Shown here piece by piece: positions 53,074 through 60,692 of a stretch of 64,000 bases of DNA. The notes under the pieces are model-generated. The model made no database searches and had not been told where the DNA came from. It was given only the letters and a program-made list of their open reading frames with translations. How positions within the stretch are numbered: the first letter of the stretch is position 1; each line of letters starts with the position of its first letter. Origin of the DNA: Amycolatopsis thermoflava N1165 (GTDB lineage: Bacteria; Actinomycetota; Actinomycetes; Mycobacteriales; Pseudonocardiaceae); NCBI RefSeq assembly GCF_000473265.1, contig NZ_KI421511.1, positions 5,438,360 to 5,502,359 on the forward strand. Direction: 5' to 3'. The position numbers and the translations under genes are program-made.

Positions 53074-53382
53074 TTACGGCTGACTGGTCGGCCCGGTCGG
53101 CCCGGTCGGGCCACTCTGGGGTCCGGTCTGGGGTCCGGCCGGTCCGGGTCCGCCCTGCGGGCCGGGCTCGCCGTGCCCGCCGCCGGTCTGCTTGTGCAGG
53201 AAGTCCTTCGCCTTCGACGTGACGTTGTCGATCTTGCTGGAGTGCTGGCCGAACTTCGACTTGGCGAAGCCGCTCGCCTTGTCCAGGCCGTGTTCGATCT
53301 TGCCGGCGTTGTGGCCGAGCGCCTCTTGCGCCTTTTTCTTGATCTCGTTGAAGTCGATGCCCATGAACCCATGAAACCCCAA
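53074..53382 (-). CDS. Rv0909-like antitoxin-type protein
   Basis: 102 residues. 'IDFNEIKKKAQEALGHNAG', 'IEHGLDKASGFAKSKFG' and 'SSKIDNVTSKAKDFLHK' repeat a Lys-rich helical pattern like the MT0933/Rv0909 putative antitoxin family. The tail is Gly/Pro-rich low-complexity. The start may instead be the internal ATG at 53364 ('MGIDFNEIKKK'). It is divergent, across 73 bp, from an SRPBCC gene, mirroring the Rv0909/Rv0910 pairing of Mycobacterium tuberculosis. Its antitoxin activity is inferred from that family only. Confidence 0.72.
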   Translation of the reverse strand: MGFHGFMGIDFNEIKKKAQEALGHNAGKIEHGLDKASGFAKSKFGQHSSKIDNVTSKAKDFLHKQTGGGHGEPGPQGGPGPAGPQTGPQSGPTGPTGPTSQP

Positions 53383-53455: not shown

Positions 53456-53896
53456 ATGCCCGCCAGGACGTTCTCCTTCGAGGTCACCCGCACCAGCAGC
53501 GCCCCGCCCGCGACCCTCTTCCGCCTGGAGACCGACGGCGCCCGCTGGTCCGATTGGGCGAAACCGCTCATCGTCGTGTCCCGTTGGGACCGGTGGGCCG
53601 ATCCGGCGGGCGGGGTGGGCGCGATCCGGGCCGTCGGGGCGTGGCCGCTGCTCATGCGCGAGGAGACGCTCGAGTACGAGCAGGACCGCCGCCACGTCTA
53701 CACCTTCGCCGAGCCCGCGCCGGTGCGCGGCTACCGCGGCGAGGTGACCTTCGAGCCCGACGGCACTGGCACGCGGCTGACCTGGCGCGGCTCGTTCCAG
53801 GAGAAGATCCCCGGCACCGGCCCGGTCGTGCGCGCCGCGCTCGCGGGAGCGATCAAGTTCCTGTCCGCGAAGCTGGTCAAGGCCGCCGAGCGCTAA
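53456..53896 (+). CDS. SRPBCC (polyketide cyclase/START-like) protein, Rv0910-like
   Basis: 146 residues with the helix-grip fold. 'FEVTRTSSAPPATLFRLETD', 'WSDWAKPLIVVSRWDRW', 'VGAIRAVGAWPLLMREETLE', 'YTFAEPAPVRGYRGEVTFEP' and 'GTRLTWRGSFQEKIPGTG' follow the usual order. In M. tuberculosis the SRPBCC protein Rv0910 is reported as the toxin partner of Rv0909. The two genes here face away from each other across a short gap. The stop overlaps the converging CHAT gene by four bases. Confidence 0.85.
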   Translation: MPARTFSFEVTRTSSAPPATLFRLETDGARWSDWAKPLIVVSRWDRWADPAGGVGAIRAVGAWPLLMREETLEYEQDRRHVYTFAEPAPVRGYRGEVTFEPDGTGTRLTWRGSFQEKIPGTGPVVRAALAGAIKFLSAKLVKAAER

Positions 53897-56475
53897 CCGG
53901 CGCCGAGGCAGAGGAACGGGCGGCGCAGCGGATCGGCGGCGGTCGCGTGCGCCAGTGCCAGCGCCGGGGAGATCCCCGACGCGAGCCGCTGGTGCAGGTC
54001 GGTCATCGCCTCCGCCGCCGCCCGGTCGCCGACCCGCGCGATCGCCCCGACGATCGTGCGGGACCCGCTCGCCAGCAGCGCGCCGGCGAACCCGAGCGCC
54101 TCCTCACCCGGCCGGATGTGGCTCATCGCCAGCTCGCAGGCGGCCAGCACCACCCGGTCCGGCGGGCGCCGCAGCCGCGCGGTCTCGTGCGCGAACAGCG
54201 GCCCGTCGACCAGTTCCAGCCGCGAGAACAACGCGTTCGCCGGTTCGTGCGCGCCGTGCGCGACCAGGTGCGCCAGGCCCGACCCGTCGAGCGCTTCCAG
54301 CACCGCGGAACTGGTCGCCGCCGAGCCGTCGACCAGCGTCGCCGACGGGTAGACCGCGCGCAGCTGCCGCACCTCGCCGATCGCGCCGGGCACGTCCGGC
54401 CCGCCGACCAGCACGACCGGGTCGATCAGCTCGCGGCGCATCGCGGTCACCCACGCGGTCGCCGACGGCGCGATCGACAGCGGACGGCCGCGCAACGACG
54501 GCAGGGCGGGCCACGGCAGCGCGTACAGCGGCCCGGTCGGCACGATCACCAGCTCGCGGTCGCCGATCGCGTCCGCGAGCGGCCGCACGACCCGCTCGTC
54601 GAGCAGGCGGGCGCGCTTCTCCGCGGACGCCGTGACGGCCGCGACCAGGGGCGACGGCAGGTGGTCCGGGGCCAGCGCGTTCAGGTCGGCGTGCAGCTGC
54701 TTGGTAATCTCCACGACCTCGTCCAGCCCGCCCAGCCGCACCAGCCGGAACCGGCCGTCCCGCACGACCACCGCGGACAGCTCGCCGTCCTGGCCGATCA
54801 GGCTGACCAGCACGCGCTCGCCCAGCTCGGCGGCCACCTCCTCGGGTGAGCTGACCGGGCGCGGCCTGCCCCACGGGCTGGTGTACCAGCCGAGGCGGCC
54901 CGCCTCCCGCTGCAGCCGGGCGTAGCGCTGCTCCAGCGCCGCCACCGGCCTGCCGTCCAGCCGGTTCTGCTGAGCGAGCCGCTGCACCTGCCGCATCTCG
55001 GTGATGAGCCGGGCCAGCACCGGATCGTCGATCGCGGGCAGCGGCTCGTAGCGGTAGACCTGCGCACGCGTCCGCTCCTGCCACGCGAACAGCCTGCGCG
55101 CGCCGGCGTGGCCGCGGGTGGTGCCGAGCACCAGCCCGACCGCGAGGCGGCCCAGCTCCTGGCCGTGCACCGCGGTCCCGCACACCAGGTCCAGCCCGCC
55201 CATCCGGTCGCGCACCCGGCTCAGCTCGGCGAAGCCGCTGCGCGCCTGCGCCAGCGCCGCACGCGGACGGCCGGTCGCCACGGCGAGTTCGGCGCGGCAC
55301 AGCCGCAGCAGCATGACGTGGTCGATCGGCGTGGTGCGGCGCGGCCGCGGCACCCGCGCGAGCAGCTCCTCGGCCGCCGTGACGTCCCCGCGGCGCAGCA
55401 GCAGCCGCACCGCGAGCAGCCGGGCCACCGCCGCTTCGTCGCGCAGCCCCAGTTCCGCGAGGCGGTCGGCGTGCCCGGTGAGACCCGTGACGAGCCGCGC
55501 CGGCGGCCGTCGCGTGCCGCCGAGGACCTCGGTGGCGTCGGCGCGCAGCCGGGTCAGCGCGGCGACCGCGGCCCATCGTTCGTTGCCGCGCCGGAGGAAC
55601 CGCCGCCGCGCCAGCTCGGCCAGCTCGCGGGCCCGGCCGTGGTCGTTGTCCAGGATCGCGGCCGCCGCGCGGGCCACCTCGGCCTCGGCGATGTCCTGCA
55701 CGTTGCGGCTCGAATACAGCTCGGGCAGGACCTCGTCGAGGTGCCGCGCCGCGTCCTCGGCGAGACCGGCGACGAGCAGCGCCCTGGCCTGGTCGACGCG
55801 CAGCCGGGCGAGCCAGCCTGGAGCCGCGTCCTCGTAGATCCGTGCGGCCTGCTCGTAGTGCCGCAACGCGCCGGGGACGTCGCCGAGTAGCTGCCCCTGC
55901 TCGCCCAGCAGGTGCCGGACCTTGCCCTCCAGCCGGGTCAGCCCGTGCTCGGTGGCCAGTTCGAGGCAGCGCCGCAGGTCCGCCAGCGCCGCCGCGGGCC
56001 GCTGCAGCTCGACGTTGATGTTGGCGCGGTTCATCAGGTTGCGGGTCAGCGACAGCGCGTTGTCGTCGGCCTCGTTTTCCAGCACCGGCAGGATCTCGTC
56101 GAACAGCGCCAGCGCTTCGGACAGCCGGCCGATCCGGCCGAGCACCAGCGCGCGCTGGGCGCCGACCAGCGCCCGCAGGACCCGCTGCGGCGGCCCGGGC
56201 GGCAGCCGATCGGTCAGCTGCCGGGCGTCGTCGAGGTGGCGCAGGCCCGCCGCCGCCGAGCCGGTCTCGGCCTCGGACATCGCGAGGCCGAGCAGGACCC
56301 GAGCCCGCAGGGTGATCCACTCGACGTCGTCCGGCCCGTCCGCGAGCACCCGCAAGGCGCGGTTGAACAACCGCACCGCCTCCACGTTGCGGAAGTTGCC
56401 CGCGGCGTCCGCGGCCCGCCCACGCAGCTCCGATGCCCGGCCCAGCGCACGCCGGGACTCACGCTGAGCTGACAC
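53893..56475 (-). CDS. TPR-CHAT domain protein (caspase-like protease)
   Basis: 860 residues. Residues ~1-420 are a run of helical TPR-like repeats ('NVEAVRLFNRALRVL', 'AAGLRHLDDARQLTD', 'PAAALADLRRCLELATEHG', 'PGALRHYEQAARIYED'). The C-terminal ~330 residues are a CHAT caspase-fold domain. The catalytic dyad is visible: His740 in 'LVAHGAHEPA' and Cys780 in 'VVLAACELAMSHI'. No signal peptide, so it is cytosolic. CHAT proteases cleave partner proteins in conflict and cell-death systems (for example with gasdermins or Cas7-11). It is the last gene of the sigma operon, 43 bp after the small regulatory protein. No gasdermin-like gene is nearby. Confidence 0.9.
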   Translation of the reverse strand: MSAQRESRRALGRASELRGRAADAAGNFRNVEAVRLFNRALRVLADGPDDVEWITLRARVLLGLAMSEAETGSAAAGLRHLDDARQLTDRLPPGPPQRVLRALVGAQRALVLGRIGRLSEALALFDEILPVLENEADDNALSLTRNLMNRANINVELQRPAAALADLRRCLELATEHGLTRLEGKVRHLLGEQGQLLGDVPGALRHYEQAARIYEDAAPGWLARLRVDQARALLVAGLAEDAARHLDEVLPELYSSRNVQDIAEAEVARAAAAILDNDHGRARELAELARRRFLRRGNERWAAVAALTRLRADATEVLGGTRRPPARLVTGLTGHADRLAELGLRDEAAVARLLAVRLLLRRGDVTAAEELLARVPRPRRTTPIDHVMLLRLCRAELAVATGRPRAALAQARSGFAELSRVRDRMGGLDLVCGTAVHGQELGRLAVGLVLGTTRGHAGARRLFAWQERTRAQVYRYEPLPAIDDPVLARLITEMRQVQRLAQQNRLDGRPVAALEQRYARLQREAGRLGWYTSPWGRPRPVSSPEEVAAELGERVLVSLIGQDGELSAVVVRDGRFRLVRLGGLDEVVEITKQLHADLNALAPDHLPSPLVAAVTASAEKRARLLDERVVRPLADAIGDRELVIVPTGPLYALPWPALPSLRGRPLSIAPSATAWVTAMRRELIDPVVLVGGPDVPGAIGEVRQLRAVYPSATLVDGSAATSSAVLEALDGSGLAHLVAHGAHEPANALFSRLELVDGPLFAHETARLRRPPDRVVLAACELAMSHIRPGEEALGFAGALLASGSRTIVGAIARVGDRAAAEAMTDLHQRLASGISPALALAHATAADPLRRPFLCLGAG

Positions 56476-56518
56476 GTGGTCTATCTGAGCACATGCGGGG
56501 GCCGGGGTGAGCAGCCGG

Positions 56519-57001
56519 TCAGAGGACGACCGCGGGCGTGACGACGGTGCGGCGGCTGCTGGCCCCGCCGACCGAGATCACGATCTGGGTGGTCCCGCGC
56601 GGCACGTCGTCGAGCACGAACCGGCCGCCCTCGTCGGCCACCGTCGACGACGACCCGTGTTCGGCCACCCGCACCTCGACCCCGTGCGCGGCGGCGGGCA
56701 CCAGCCAGCCGTCGATGCGGTGGCAGTGCCCGACCCTGGTCAGGTTGATCATCACCGTGAGATCGCTGACCGTGAACGTGATCGTGCCCTCGTCGGTGAT
56801 GCTGCGGACGCCGGCCAGCGCCGGGTCGGCCCGCTCCCACTGGGCGATCTCGAAGTCGAGGTTCTCCAGTTCGAGTGCGAACTGCACGCGCTCGACCAGG
56901 CCGTCCGGGGGCGGGTCGACGGCAGCCAGCACCCGGCCCAGATCGGCCAGCAGTTCTTCGTCGCCGGGGTGCGCCCCACCCCCTGGCAGATTGTCGTTCA
57001 T
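56519..57001 (-). CDS. Small protein with carboxypeptidase-regulatory-like domain
   Basis: 160 residues. The N-terminal half is acidic and helical ('DEELLADLGRVLAAVDP', 'LVERVQFALELENLDFEIAQ'). The C-terminal half is beta-rich ('DGWLVPAAAHGVEVRVAEHG', 'GGRFVLDDVPRGTTQIVISV'), like a transthyretin/carboxypeptidase-regulatory fold. Its ATG overlaps the sigma factor stop by four bases, the position usual for an anti-sigma factor, but it has no zinc-binding HxxxCxxC or membrane helix. It may hold the sigma factor or link it to the CHAT protease. Function is inferred from position. Confidence 0.75.
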   Translation of the reverse strand: MNDNLPGGGAHPGDEELLADLGRVLAAVDPPPDGLVERVQFALELENLDFEIAQWERADPALAGVRSITDEGTITFTVSDLTVMINLTRVGHCHRIDGWLVPAAAHGVEVRVAEHGSSSTVADEGGRFVLDDVPRGTTQIVISVGGASSRRTVVTPAVVL

Positions 57002-57618
57002 GCGCTGCCCCCTTCGATGTCCAGCAGTTCGCGCATCGTCTTCAGGCAGCGGCCGCGGTTCGGTCCGATGCTGCCGCGCGGCATCTGCAGCGCTTCGGCG
57101 ACGAGCCGGTACTCGGCGCGACCGGCGAGCACGGTGAGCCGCAGCAGTTCCTGGCACCGCTGCGGAAGCCTGCGGAAGGCGCGCCAGAGCCGCTGGTCGC
57201 GCTCGGTGCGCAGCACCTCGGCCTCGGGCGCGGGGTCGGTGCTCGCCACGGTCTCGGCCAGTTCGTCGGTCAACGGCACCGGCGGCGGTTTCCGCCCGCG
57301 CACGCGCTGCGATTCGTGCCGCGCGGTGACGACCAGCCAGCCGGCCAGCGCCTTCGGCTCGCGCAGCCGGTCGAGGTGGCTGACCAGCGCCAGCCACACG
57401 GTCTGCACCACGTCCTCGGCCGAGTGGCTGTCCAGCCCCTGGCCGCGCGCCACGTTCCACACCAGCGGGGTCAGCTCGGCGACCAGCCGGTTCAGCGCGC
57501 GTTTGTCCCCCGCCCGCGCCGCGGCAAGGCACGCCTCGAACAGCTCCGGTCCGCGGAGTCCCTCCCAGGACGGATCCGCCTCGGCGGTCCTCGCTTCCGT
57601 CACCGCGTTCGCCCCCAC
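56998..57618 (-). CDS. ECF-like RNA polymerase sigma factor
   Basis: 206 residues from a GTG at 57618. Region 2 is 'LVWNVARGQGLDSHSAEDVV' with 'WLALVSHLDRLREPKALAGW' (promoter -10 recognition). Region 4 is 'FRRLPQRCQELLRLTVLAG' with 'YRLVAEALQMPRGSIGPNRG' (-35 recognition helix). A 73-nt leader follows a promoter-like element (57692-57717) that is shared with the C1 protease operon, so the factor probably transcribes itself and both operons. It is first in the order sigma - small protein - CHAT protease. Confidence 0.92.
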   Translation of the reverse strand: MGANAVTEARTAEADPSWEGLRGPELFEACLAAARAGDKRALNRLVAELTPLVWNVARGQGLDSHSAEDVVQTVWLALVSHLDRLREPKALAGWLVVTARHESQRVRGRKPPPVPLTDELAETVASTDPAPEAEVLRTERDQRLWRAFRRLPQRCQELLRLTVLAGRAEYRLVAEALQMPRGSIGPNRGRCLKTMRELLDIEGGSA

Positions 57619-57691
57619 TTCGCGTGGTTCTCCTCGGGTCAGCGCTAGGCAGTATCTCCGGCTCCGTCACCGTGCAGAGCACGAAGGCGAA

Positions 57692-57717
57692 CGCCAGATA
57701 CACAACATCACTCGTTC
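57692..57717 (-). promoter_or_regulatory. Shared promoter-like element before the sigma operon
   Basis: On the minus strand GAAC (57717-57714), a 13-base spacer and TATCTGGCG (57700-57692) lie 73 bases before the sigma start. The identical layout AAAC-N13-TATCTGGCG occurs before the C1 protease operon (59927-59902), with TGTGTATCTGGCG conserved in both. The GAAC half sits in the last codons of the chagasin-like gene. It resembles an ECF -35 box with its -10 region and is a candidate target of the adjacent sigma factor. Confidence 0.6.
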
Positions 57718-58046
57718 GGAGCAGTCACGGCGAGCACGAACGTGACGGAGCGGCGCGGCTCCACCTCCCACGGCCGCGCCAGCTCCGCCCGGAGCAGGTG
57801 CCGGCCGGGCTCGACGACGTCGAGCGCCAGCCGGCGCACACCCCCCTCGCCCGGTGGCCCCTCCCCGTGGGCCACCCCCCTGGACCGGACGTGCTCGTCC
57901 GCCACCACGCGGACCGCGTCCGGCAACCGCCAGCGCCACCGGTAACCCGACGCGCGGACCTCCGGCAGGCGCAGCTCCACCGTGTCCCCCACGTGGAGCC
58001 GCGCCGTCTCCCCCGAATCCGCCTGCGCGAGCCGGATCTGTGTCAC
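57708..58046 (-). CDS. Chagasin-like (I42) cysteine-protease inhibitor
   Basis: 112 residues. 'LHVGDTVELRLPEVRASGYRW' matches the chagasin start and first binding loop ('NPTTGYxW' becomes 'RASGYRW'). 'GEGGVRRLALDVVEPG' holds the second loop (GGxG-type) and 'LRAELARPWEVEP' is the third loop with the family's RPWE. Chagasins block papain-family C1 proteases tightly. This one lacks a signal peptide and lies two genes downstream of a C1 protease gene. The simplest reading is cytosolic control of that protease. The first loop is diverged, so affinity may differ from known inhibitors. A strong stem-loop precedes it. Confidence 0.82.
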   Translation of the reverse strand: MTQIRLAQADSGETARLHVGDTVELRLPEVRASGYRWRWRLPDAVRVVADEHVRSRGVAHGEGPPGEGGVRRLALDVVEPGRHLLRAELARPWEVEPRRSVTFVLAVTAPNE

Positions 58047-58063
58047 TGGAAGCTCCCCAGGGT

Positions 58064-58102
58064 GGCGGTGGCCGGCGGCCCCCTCGGCTGCCGGCCACCG
58101 CC
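58064..58102 (-). terminator. Terminator/attenuator between repeat protein and inhibitor genes
   Basis: A perfect 13-bp stem, GGCGGTGGCCGGC (58064-58076) with GCCGGCCACCGCC (58090-58102), has a 13-base loop and lies between the repeat-protein stop and the inhibitor start on the same strand. Partial read-through would give the inhibitor at a lower level than the protease, or it could be conditional. Confidence 0.65.
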
Positions 58103-58118
58103 GGTCTGCGTGCCGCCG

Positions 58119-58685
58119 TCAGACCAGGATCTGGTCGATCTGCCCGGCGGCGTTCTCGTGGAAGGACACCGGCAGCCCGTGGTTGCGGGCCAGCAGTGCC
58201 AGCGTCGTCAGGGAGCTGCGCCCGTCCGCGGTGGCGGCGAGCCGCTTCCAGCCCAGACCCGCGATGTCCACCCAGACGCCCGGGTTGGCGCTCGTCGACC
58301 ACAGCCGCGCGACCTGCCTGCCGTGCACCCAGACGCCCTGCGCCTGCGGCACCGGCTGGACCGGCTGAGCCGGCGTGCCGTTGCCGTTCGGCGGGGTGTT
58401 CGGGTCGTACACACCGCTCGGGGGCGGGGTGTTGGGGTCGTAGACGCCGGTGGGCGGCGGCGTGTTCGGGTCGTACACGCCAGTCGGCGGCGGCGTGTTC
58501 GGGTCGTAAACGCCCGTCGGCGGCGGCGTGTTCGGGTCATACACGCCGGTCGGCGGCGGGGTGTTCGGGTCGTAGACGCCGGCCGGGCCGTCGGATCCGG
58601 GCGTCTCCCTGGTCAGTTCGGCGAGTTCGGCGTTCGGGTCGTCCTGTGGGCCGGTGTCCGGCGTCTCGCTCTTGCTCGTGGTCAT
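58119..58685 (-). CDS. Repeat protein with C-terminal domain shared with the C1 protease
   Basis: 188 residues. Residues 1-35 are acidic. Residues 36-99 are six tandem copies of the 11-residue unit GVYDPNTPPPT (last shortened). A Pro/Gln linker leads to a C-terminal ~60-residue domain ('ARLWSTSANPGVWVDIAGLG', 'WKRLAATADGRSSLTTLALL', 'LPVSFHENAAGQIDQI'). The latter aligns with the tail of the adjacent C1 protease ('WVRLAGDAAGVSRQLALLAE'). No signal peptide. It may be a substrate, scaffold or decoy for the protease, tethered by the shared domain. No known family is recognised for the repeat. Confidence 0.82.
   Translation of the reverse strand: MTTSKSETPDTGPQDDPNAELAELTRETPGSDGPAGVYDPNTPPPTGVYDPNTPPPTGVYDPNTPPPTGVYDPNTPPPTGVYDPNTPPPSGVYDPNTPPNGNGTPAQPVQPVPQAQGVWVHGRQVARLWSTSANPGVWVDIAGLGWKRLAATADGRSSLTTLALLARNHGLPVSFHENAAGQIDQILV
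58389..58580 (-). repeat. Six 33-bp tandem repeats (11-residue GVYDPNTPPPT units)
   Basis: In-frame near-identical units lie within the repeat-protein gene, differing only by a few synonymous bases and one Ser substitution, with a shortened last copy. High nucleotide identity implies recent expansion and probable copy-number variation. It is coding, with no spacers, and is not a CRISPR array. Confidence 0.9.
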
Positions 58686-58698
58686 GCTCCGCTCCCCA

Positions 58699-59844
58699 TC
58701 AGTAGGTGGTGGCAACCTTGGTCAGCACGCCCTGGTCGAGGAACGGGCTGACGGGATGCCCGCCCGCCCGAGCCTCGGCGAGCAGCGCGAGCTGACGGCT
58801 CACGCCCGCGGCGTCCCCCGCGAGCCGGACCCAGCCCAGCTGCTCCAGGCAGACCCATTCACCGGCACCGGCCGAGAACAGGCGCAGCGCGCGCTGCGGC
58901 GGTAGCCACGCGCGCAGGGTGACCCCGGTGCAGCCGAGGGTCGTCGGCCGCGGTTCCGGGTAGTCCTCGATGAAGGCCTCGCCGTAGGCGATCCGGAAGA
59001 ACCCGCCCTCGCCCCAGTCGGTGCCCCAGGAGTTCTTGGCGATCCAGCAGCTCTGCTCGTCGTCCCAGCCGATGAGCGCGACGCAGTGCCCGCCGTTGCT
59101 CTCCGTCGTGGTGGCGCGGTAGATGCCGCCGGTGTAGTGGAAGAAGTCGTCGTAGATCACCATGCACGCGGTGACCGGCCCGTAGCCGTAGATGTGGTGC
59201 TTGATCGCGGCCGGGTCCTGGGTGAGGTCGACGACGCCCTCCGCGCGCGCGACGCGGTTCACCCAGTTCGGGTGCAGCGCGCCGGTGCCCTCGTCCGAGT
59301 AGGGCCAGTAGTCCTCGAAGGTGACGCCCTTGGCCGCGCAGTCCCCCATCAGGTCGTCCGGCCAGGACCCGGTGTCACCCGGCTTGCGGTGTGCCGGCGC
59401 GAACCCGAAGAACAGGTGCGCCTCCGACAGGTCGAGGCGCATGCCGGTGTTGCGGCGCGTGTACGCGGCGGTCCCCTCAAGTGCCGCGATGGTGCCGAAC
59501 GCGCTGCAGGACCCCGATTCCCCCTGGTCCTTCACCGGCGTGACGTAGCTGCGGCCGCACACGTCGCGGAGGTCGAACTTGGCGGGCAGCGTGCTGCCCG
59601 GCGCGTGCAGCGCGGTGCAGGGCTGGCCGGCGGCCCCGAGCGCGACCTCGAGCATCCGCCCCGGCAACTCGGCCCGGGCTTCCACTTCGGCCACGCTCGG
59701 GGCCGGCACCCCCAGTCGCACCCTGCGCGACTCGCCCGCCAGCCGGCTGAGCACCGTCTCCCCCGCCTGCCACGGATCCCCCATCGTGGCAAGGGAATCC
59801 CGCACGGCGCGGATTTCCTCGGCGAAGGGCCGGGGAGAGCTCAT
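58699..59844 (-). CDS. Papain-like C1 cysteine protease with C-terminal accessory domain
   Basis: 381 residues from the ATG at 59844 with GGAGG upstream. After a ~80-residue helical leader, the papain core has Gln107 and catalytic Cys113 ('KDQGESGSCSAFG'; the usual first Cys of QGxCGSC is Ser), His253 ('SNGGHCVALIGW') and Asn271 ('AKNSWGTDWGEGG'). The leader could be a pro-region, though it is not the usual ERFNIN type. Residues ~319-377 form a tail homologous to that of the next gene product. No signal peptide, so activity is expected in the cytosol, which is unusual for C1 proteases. First in the operon with the repeat protein and chagasin-like inhibitor. Confidence 0.9.
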   Translation of the reverse strand: MSSPRPFAEEIRAVRDSLATMGDPWQAGETVLSRLAGESRRVRLGVPAPSVAEVEARAELPGRMLEVALGAAGQPCTALHAPGSTLPAKFDLRDVCGRSYVTPVKDQGESGSCSAFGTIAALEGTAAYTRRNTGMRLDLSEAHLFFGFAPAHRKPGDTGSWPDDLMGDCAAKGVTFEDYWPYSDEGTGALHPNWVNRVARAEGVVDLTQDPAAIKHHIYGYGPVTACMVIYDDFFHYTGGIYRATTTESNGGHCVALIGWDDEQSCWIAKNSWGTDWGEGGFFRIAYGEAFIEDYPEPRPTTLGCTGVTLRAWLPPQRALRLFSAGAGEWVCLEQLGWVRLAGDAAGVSRQLALLAEARAGGHPVSPFLDQGVLTKVATTY

Positions 59845-59901
59845 GCGTTCCTCCAGTCGGTGTGCAACCAGCCAACGCCCCCTATGACGCGGGGAGGCCC
59901 T

Positions 59902-59927
59902 CGCCAGATACACAGCGACAGAAGTTT
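59902..59927 (-). promoter_or_regulatory. Shared promoter-like element before the C1 protease operon
   Basis: On the minus strand AAAC (59927-59924), 13 bases and TATCTGGCG (59910-59902) lie 57 bases before the protease ATG, matching the element upstream of the sigma operon at the same spacing. The long T/A tract on either side (GTTTTTCC) marks an otherwise GC-rich region. Candidate promoter for the adjacent ECF-like sigma factor. Confidence 0.6.
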
Positions 59928-59966: not shown

Positions 59967-60692
59967 TCAGCCCAATGCGACGGCCTCCGCGAGCTTGTCC
60001 GCCCACAGCCGGTAGCCGGCCGGTCCGGGGTGGAACCCGTCCGCCGCGAACAGCTCCGGGGCGACCACCGCGCGCGGCACCGGGCAGTGGGTGACGCCCG
60101 GTAGGTCCGCGAGCGTCGCCGCCGCCGCGTCCAGCGCCTCGCCCCGCAGGCCGAGCACGAGGCGCAACGGCTGCGGCAGCGACGGGAACGCGGCGAGCGG
60201 CGGGACGCCGGCCAGCAGCACCGGGACCGGCCCGAGCGCCCGTCGCGCCGTCACCACCAGTTCCAGCAGGTCGCGCCGGTAGCGGGTGGGTGAGCGCATC
60301 TCGATGGTGTCGTTGACACCGAGCGCCACCGCGACCAGGTCCGCCCGCTCCCGGCACGCCTCGTCGAGCAGCTCCGTCCGGACCGTGCGCGCGTTGGCGC
60401 CCGTCCGCCCGGCCACGCGCCAGTCGATCCCGCGCCCCAGCCGCCGGGCGAGCGCCGCGGCCAGCTGCCCGGTCAGCGCCTCCTCGTGCGTCCCCGCGCC
60501 GACGCCATCCACAGTGGACTCGCCGACCACCAGCAGCCGCAGCGGGTCCGGTCCGGGCGCCGAACCCCGCAGCGGCCCGGACGCGCCCGGCAGCCGCGGT
60601 GTCGTCCGGCGCACGTGCAGGCCCTGGGCGACCAGCACCGGGGCGAGTCCGACCGTGGCCGCGAGGGTCAGGGCAGTCCGCGAAGTTGACAC
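59967..60692 (-). CDS. SGNH/GDSL-family hydrolase
   Basis: 241 residues. An N-terminal hydrophobic segment ('ALTLAATVGLAPVLVA') could be a signal anchor. The SGNH blocks are Ser in 'LLVVGESTVDGVGAG', Gly in 'WRVAGRTGANA', Asn in 'VALGVNDTIEM' and Asp/His in 'FAADGFHPGPAGYRLWA'. It is an esterase/lipase or acyl-transferase-type hydrolase with unknown substrate. Transcribed on the minus strand after a 9-bp gap from the next gene. Confidence 0.88.
   Translation of the reverse strand: MSTSRTALTLAATVGLAPVLVAQGLHVRRTTPRLPGASGPLRGSAPGPDPLRLLVVGESTVDGVGAGTHEEALTGQLAAALARRLGRGIDWRVAGRTGANARTVRTELLDEACRERADLVAVALGVNDTIEMRSPTRYRRDLLELVVTARRALGPVPVLLAGVPPLAAFPSLPQPLRLVLGLRGEALDAAAATLADLPGVTHCPVPRAVVAPELFAADGFHPGPAGYRLWADKLAEAVALG

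Follow-up and report, generated by a model that had tools for sequence, protein, structure and literature searches.

In type III-E CRISPR systems, the tetratricopeptide repeat (TPR)-CHAT protease Csx29 cleaves Csx30, which inhibits an extracytoplasmic function (ECF) sigma factor with motifs at the locus that encodes it (PMC10028731, accessible text). A comparable protease-sigma logic, built on a Lon protease, is described for CalpL/CalpT/CalpS in the accessible part of PMC11417357. Within the literature found, part of whose text was accessible, the CRISPR-linked Csx29 is the one TPR-CHAT protein with a substrate-and-output circuit. Here we analyse a 64,000-nucleotide stretch of the genome of the soil actinomycete Amycolatopsis thermoflava N1165 (contig NZ_KI421511.1, positions 5,438,360 to 5,502,359; "the window"). 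In it, six minus-strand genes at 53893-59844 encode, in this order, a C1 papain-like protease, a repeat protein (gene 2), an I42 (chagasin-family) cysteine protease inhibitor, an ECF-type sigma factor, a small protein termed P5 (P0005) and a TPR-CHAT protease. Since the order sigma factor, small protein, TPR-CHAT is combined with a motif resembling autoregulation, the same reading as for Csx29/Csx30 is invited. We propose a CRISPR-free, protease-controlled regulon of two operons under a private ECF sigma factor, following the logic of Csx29, Csx30 and CASP-sigma, and put the probability of this reading at about one half.

The two operons and their promoter-like motif

Both operons are preceded by a bipartite promoter-like motif, TGTATC-N17-C[GT][CT], which had escaped an earlier interpretation of the window made without database searches (the sequence-only reading). 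On the minus strand, TGTATC, 17 nucleotides (nt) and CGTC are located at 59886-59912 ahead of the papain operon. The sigma operon is preceded, at 57677-57702, by TGTATC, 17 nt and CTC, directly after the stop codon of the inhibitor gene. The 8.69-Mb genome contains two exact copies of the 13-mer TGTGTATCTGGCG, one ahead of each operon, and four matches in all are obtained if up to one mismatch is allowed. In relatives the flanks of the motif have diverged, whereas TGTATC is kept, as is C[GT][CT] at a distance of 17 nt.

For the motif counts, C1 matches below 50% identity (and thus loci L038-L041), short matches and upstream regions sharing over 85% similarity were left out, which reduced the C1 regions from 67 to 39 and the sigma regions from 78 to 51. 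GTATC precedes all 39 non-redundant C1 genes, 55-109 nt before the estimated start (background: 276 of 5760 random 155-nt windows). Together with the downstream box it is present in 37 C1 regions, L159 and L161 failing, compared to 341 of 41700 random windows. Where both promoters fit (17 loci), the dinucleotide following GTATC is identical between them in 14. Since the upstream regions are related by descent, these counts do not represent independent events, and the argument lies in the contrast with the drifting spacer. Within 19 genomes of the genus, TGTATCTG-N{14,16}-CGTC stands ahead of C1 in all 17 that carry this gene. It was found in neither of the two C1-less genomes (G008 and G018), which have no P5 or CHAT match either. 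The pattern has no further match in its own genome and 11 hits elsewhere in the others; the reversed-pattern control gave three. Judged from these comparisons, it is quite probable, and well supported, that the two operons share their regulation.

The sigma-P5 core and its partners across genomes

The sequence-only reading had made its proposal depend on conserved linkage in other genomes, and such linkage was found. Among 297 sampled genomes of the family (Pseudonocardiaceae), 57 have C1 matches and 45 have an ortholog, defined by 56% or more identity. P5 is present in all 45 and lies within about 3 kb of C1 on one contig in 42; two of the others are split by contig ends (G011, G015), and in G129 C1 and P5 are ~217 kb apart. 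Hence C1 goes with sigma-P5, although the majority of the P5-bearing genomes (163 of the 297, in 27 of 46 genera) are without C1. The claim that the whole set stands under one sigma factor is partly supported: the shared motif supports it in silico, but the set is not obligatory, because P5 often occurs without C1 and both CHAT and the inhibitor vary.

Linkage of the inhibitor and of CHAT to the module is not universal. CHAT follows in all 13 complete named loci (L023-L037 without the cut loci L025 and L032; a few of them are shared with the G-numbered genomes) and in nine of 17 hand-chosen C1 loci of other genera (L151-L166, L170). The genomes of the other eight all hold CHAT homologues elsewhere, and a CHAT search of 16 genomes detected such homologues in 14. 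In the window, in L023 and in L024, the papain operon is located between an SGNH hydrolase gene and the sigma gene, whereas seven C1-less loci have the SGNH gene upstream of sigma and no papain operon; the majority of the remaining loci lack an SGNH gene at this place. This suggests a presence/absence cassette.

Across the class, the P5 profile matched 62 of 394 genomes and 33 of 138 sampled genera, and sigma adjoins P5 in all 30 best loci, including the window and one further family member. Sigma-P5 is the stable core of the module. Wider stretches were taken from 24 of the 60 P5-positive genomes outside the family, most of them with high scores. In 18 of these 24 neighbourhoods, CHAT is accompanied by an S8 subtilase in place of the papain (the S8 assignment is backed by Pfam for two proteins, PF00082, E 4e-16 and 2e-22, and for the rest by a profile built on those two). 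The S8 gene is on the strand of sigma in 17 of the 18, in the order S8-sigma-P5-CHAT or sigma-P5-S8-CHAT. L288 has a weak S8 match on the opposite strand and CHAT before sigma, and in L289 CHAT lies about 4 kb on. Since a subtilase takes the place of the papain in other actinomycete families, the module can be regarded as a switch whose second protease is exchangeable. One locus within the family, L167, combines S8, sigma, P5 and CHAT with a divergent C1.

If the loci outside the family are sorted by operon order (L279, cut at the edge, left out), GTATC is found before the first gene in nine of nine sigma-first and four of seven S8-first loci, and L288 has it before sigma. In loci without CHAT it precedes sigma in one of six (background: 237 of 4800 windows). 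Away from sigma-P5, an S8 gene is located directly upstream of CHAT in five (L198, L202, L204, L208, L209) of 14 CHAT loci (L197-L210), which suggests that the S8-CHAT pair is a module of its own.

The six proteins and the RNA hairpin

Gene content, order, strand and position of the six genes were confirmed as first described. Alignments of relatives agree with the catalytic residues named for both proteases (Cys113/His253/Asn271 in C1, His740/Cys780 in CHAT). The proposed lack of signal peptides fits the maximum 19-residue mean hydropathy of 0.25-1.38 across the six proteins, none of which contains a segment hydrophobic enough to serve as a signal peptide or to span the membrane.

The sigma factor (56998-57618, 206 residues) matches TIGR02937, the sigma-70 ECF superfamily, with 72 bits (cut-off 42.9) over model positions 2-164 of 165, and scores above the cut-off of PF04542. 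The TPR-CHAT protein (53893-56475, 860 residues) matches PF12770 with E 2.8e-26 and 93.1 bits (cut-off 24), and His740 and Cys780 are invariant in 21 sequences. Compared with solved structures, its CHAT part alone gave only weak IMPDH matches; a profile of the whole protein gave weak matches confined to the TPR part.

The C1 protease (58699-59844, 381 residues) matches PF00112 with E 4e-38 and 132.1 bits (Pfam cut-off 20.7), the single match to this family in the genome. The nearest named papain gene among the matches listed is that of Amycolatopsis tucumanensis (99%). The catalytic set is present (Q107, C113, H253, N271); in an alignment of 30 sequences, His253 and Asn271 are invariant and Cys113 occurs in at least 90%. 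The N-terminal ~80 residues are propeptide-like, and Pfam lists no propeptide family in this part. The predicted model, compared over residues 1-312, aligns with procathepsin-type proforms from residues 1-7 on; the C-terminal domain lies outside this range and has a predicted local distance difference test (pLDDT) score of about 35-58. Judging by this model, the papain is probably made as a dormant zymogen. In one genus the catalytic Cys113 is exchanged for Ser (L160, L163, L166, L170, L216, L217, L218), and no I42 gene was detected there. A tie between loss of Cys113 and loss of gene 2 was dropped, as gene 2 is absent in merely two of these seven loci. The protease of L160 and that of L166 have a tail ending like gene 2, as would result from recombination between the two C-terminal domains.

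Gene 2 (58119-58685, 188 residues) contains six 11-residue units (GVYDPNTPPPT), seen in the DNA as a 33-nt period with 6.0 copies and 87% matches, so that the predicted 11-residue-repeat protein is borne out; the protein has no Pfam or other family match. The repeats are followed by a C-terminal domain (58122-58337) homologous to the C-terminal ~70 residues of the protease (58702-58920). This common domain, overlooked before, has no Pfam match and, within the search made, was confined to this cassette. Its profile matches to designed armadillo-type chains cover half of the domain (best E 6e-5) and were taken as a repeat artefact.

The inhibitor (57708-58046, 112 residues) matches PF09394 with E 3.5e-14 and 53.3 bits (Pfam cut-off 27.2). 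Of the three loops by which chagasins inhibit, GEGG and RPW can be aligned to relatives of solved structure; the first reads RASGY in place of NPTTG-type residues. In L272 (7931-8737; genome G062, near a contig end), gene 2 and I42 adjoin with no papain match in the stretch fetched. On a Microcystis contig (L042, 7977-9969), the gene of a C1 protease precedes that of an I42-like protein; thus the protease-inhibitor pair exists beyond the actinomycetes.

The interval that separates the inhibitor gene from gene 2 contains a conserved RNA hairpin (58064-58102, minus strand) with a 13-bp stem and the loop AGCCGAGGGGGCC, a feature missed by the sequence-only reading. Compensatory changes are present, with 235 of 247 pair cells paired over 19 distinct rows, and across relatives the loop reads AG[CT]CGAGGGGGCC. 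The hairpin core occurs once per genome in 16 of the 19 genus genomes, two of the remaining three being without C1. The hairpin could set the protease-to-inhibitor ratio. Rfam returned five weak matches, all far under the gathering scores, and a scan for consensus sigma-70 promoters and terminators found none.

Proposed relay, alternatives and known systems

In the proposed relay, P5 would hold the sigma factor inactive. The TPR-CHAT protease would receive a signal, probably via its TPR part, become active and, by analogy with the cleavage of Csx30 by Csx29, cleave P5. The freed sigma factor would then drive transcription of both operons, its own and that of the papain, from promoters that match, as the motif conservation supports. 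The papain, with its propeptide-like region, would be produced as a cytosolic zymogen and subsequently activated. Gene 2 may position or restrain it through the common C-terminal domain and, as its family suggests, I42 would act as a brake where present. That P5 (56519-57001) is the anti-sigma factor of the neighbouring sigma, to which their adjacency points, has a slightly better than even chance. Cleavage of P5 by CHAT is a tentative assignment. Distinctly more speculative, and in our view rather doubtful, is a general CRISPR-free relay across actinobacterial families. In such a relay, CHAT would destroy the anti-sigma factor and the freed sigma would drive a second, cytosolic zymogen protease (papain here, subtilase elsewhere), an adaptor with the C-terminal domain of that protease and a chagasin brake. 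The whole would be a bacterial analogue of an initiator-executioner cascade, by which a cell under attack or stress is arrested or killed.

Several observations weigh against the proposed regulon. GTATC is present in 33 of the 51 sigma upstream regions and missing in 18. Outside the family and without sorting, it precedes 12 of 24 sigma and five of 18 S8 genes. Six of the 24 stretches, five of them from one family (f22), contain sigma-P5 without CHAT or S8, and CHAT does not follow in eight of the 17 C1 loci of other genera. I42 is absent in ten of 37 loci with intact Cys113. None of 20 C1-less family loci (L171-L190) has an S8 subtilase. Moreover, L038-L041 contain C1, gene 2 and I42 without a nearby sigma-P5, and the motif is absent from the 143 bases before C1.

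The alternative that survives best, falling somewhat short of an even chance, is a papain for ordinary protein turnover or development, with zymogen form and inhibitor for safety and no role in death or defence. It would suit the surroundings. The module is flanked by the SGNH hydrolase gene (59967-60692) and a polyketide-cyclase-type gene (53456-53896), with prephenate dehydrogenase and M20 peptidase genes further along. Eight of nine scanned neighbouring open reading frames match common Pfam families, e.g. prephenate dehydrogenase and SGNH hydrolase. No CRISPR family was found among the nine, a search aimed at Cas7-11 or CRISPR not having been made. The six module proteins have no match to PADLOC models at E up to 1, and membership in a PADLOC defence system was rejected. 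An ordinary role agrees less well with the patchy presence of the papain (45 of 297 genomes) and its presence or absence at one site beside the SGNH gene, and likewise with the linked sigma factor and the subtilase in its place elsewhere. Near the module, at 53074-53382 (minus strand), a small protein of the MT0933-like antitoxin family with a Gly-Pro-rich tail is encoded.

It is also conceivable, with perhaps a minor share of the probability, that P5 is a co-activator, chaperone or sensor working with CHAT, and that sigma is governed by expression alone. Pfam and profile searches detected no kinship of P5 to named anti-sigma families, which counts against the anti-sigma assignment. Its predicted structure consists of two N-terminal helices, a low-confidence linker that is conserved, and a beta-sandwich C-terminal half with a weak resemblance, below the Pfam cut-off, to CarboxypepD_reg domains. 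A fold search with the model found generic beta-sandwiches alone (best E 0.025), again unfavourable to that assignment. However, sigma and P5 remain adjacent where no CHAT is seen nearby, and the helices together with the conserved low-confidence stretch would suit folding upon binding to a partner.

Less probable still is that the motif is an operator of another regulator, by which the operons would be co-regulated without sigma as the direct driver. A conserved GATACT stretch downstream of the motif (57651-57656, minus strand), kept upstream of sigma in relatives, could be a housekeeping -10 box and perhaps marks a second promoter, which would speak for this explanation. Nevertheless, the two boxes at fixed distance in our judgement resemble an ECF promoter, the motif accompanies sigma-P5-CHAT into other families, and it is unmatched in the two genus genomes without P5, CHAT and C1. 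Two unrelated operons brought together by chance, for which the frequent P5 without C1 and the C1 cassettes of L038-L041 without sigma-P5 and motif might speak, were rejected as very improbable on the C1-P5 linkage in 42 of 45 orthologs and the motif common to both operons.

Among the literature matches listed, with subscription papers mostly outside reach, the set of CHAT, papain, chagasin and sigma is undescribed, as the sequence-only reading had supposed. No paper with both a chagasin and a CHAT domain was found. Apart from CRISPR systems and PMC8195603, the matches listed for a pairing of CHAT with a sigma or ECF factor, a papain or a subtilisin concerned other subjects. If the proposed reading is correct, it supplies a defined promoter, predicts a regulon of two operons and names a candidate substrate, so that the role of such CHAT proteases becomes directly testable in a cultivable genus.

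The papain resembles procathepsins and the partner in the chagasin-cathepsin B complex (PDB 4i04, 1mir, 3cbk) in its fold, its predicted propeptide-like region and the accompanying chagasin-family inhibitor. Unlike these, it is bacterial, shows no signal peptide, carries an extra C-terminal domain common to a repeat protein and is linked to a sigma factor. As in type III-E CASP/Craspase, TPR-CHAT, small protein and ECF sigma are co-encoded, and as for CASP-sigma, motifs in the own locus suggest positive autoregulation (accessible text of PMC10028731). In contrast to Csx29, however, the CHAT protein here reaches 19.3 bits with NF041237 (cut-off 300 bits), and membership was rejected; P5 showed no sequence link to Csx30, none being specifically sought. 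The predicted regulon also differs from Craspase by a second protease with its own inhibitor. CalpL-CalpT-CalpS uses a Lon-SAVED protease activated by cyclic tetra-adenylate (cA4), and the complex, as far as PMC11417357 is accessible, is described without papain or chagasin. The EACC2-caspase systems, a proposed conflict system, likewise combine a caspase-fold domain, an ECF sigma and a TPR protein, but have EACC2 with variable C-terminal domains; they are set apart here by description and not by sequence (PMC8195603, in part). Protease-controlled sigma circuits are thus already known, and the new element is the second, exchangeable protease. If the proposed regulon is correct, Csx29-type logic operates without CRISPR in numerous genera, with a second protease of exchangeable type as its end point.

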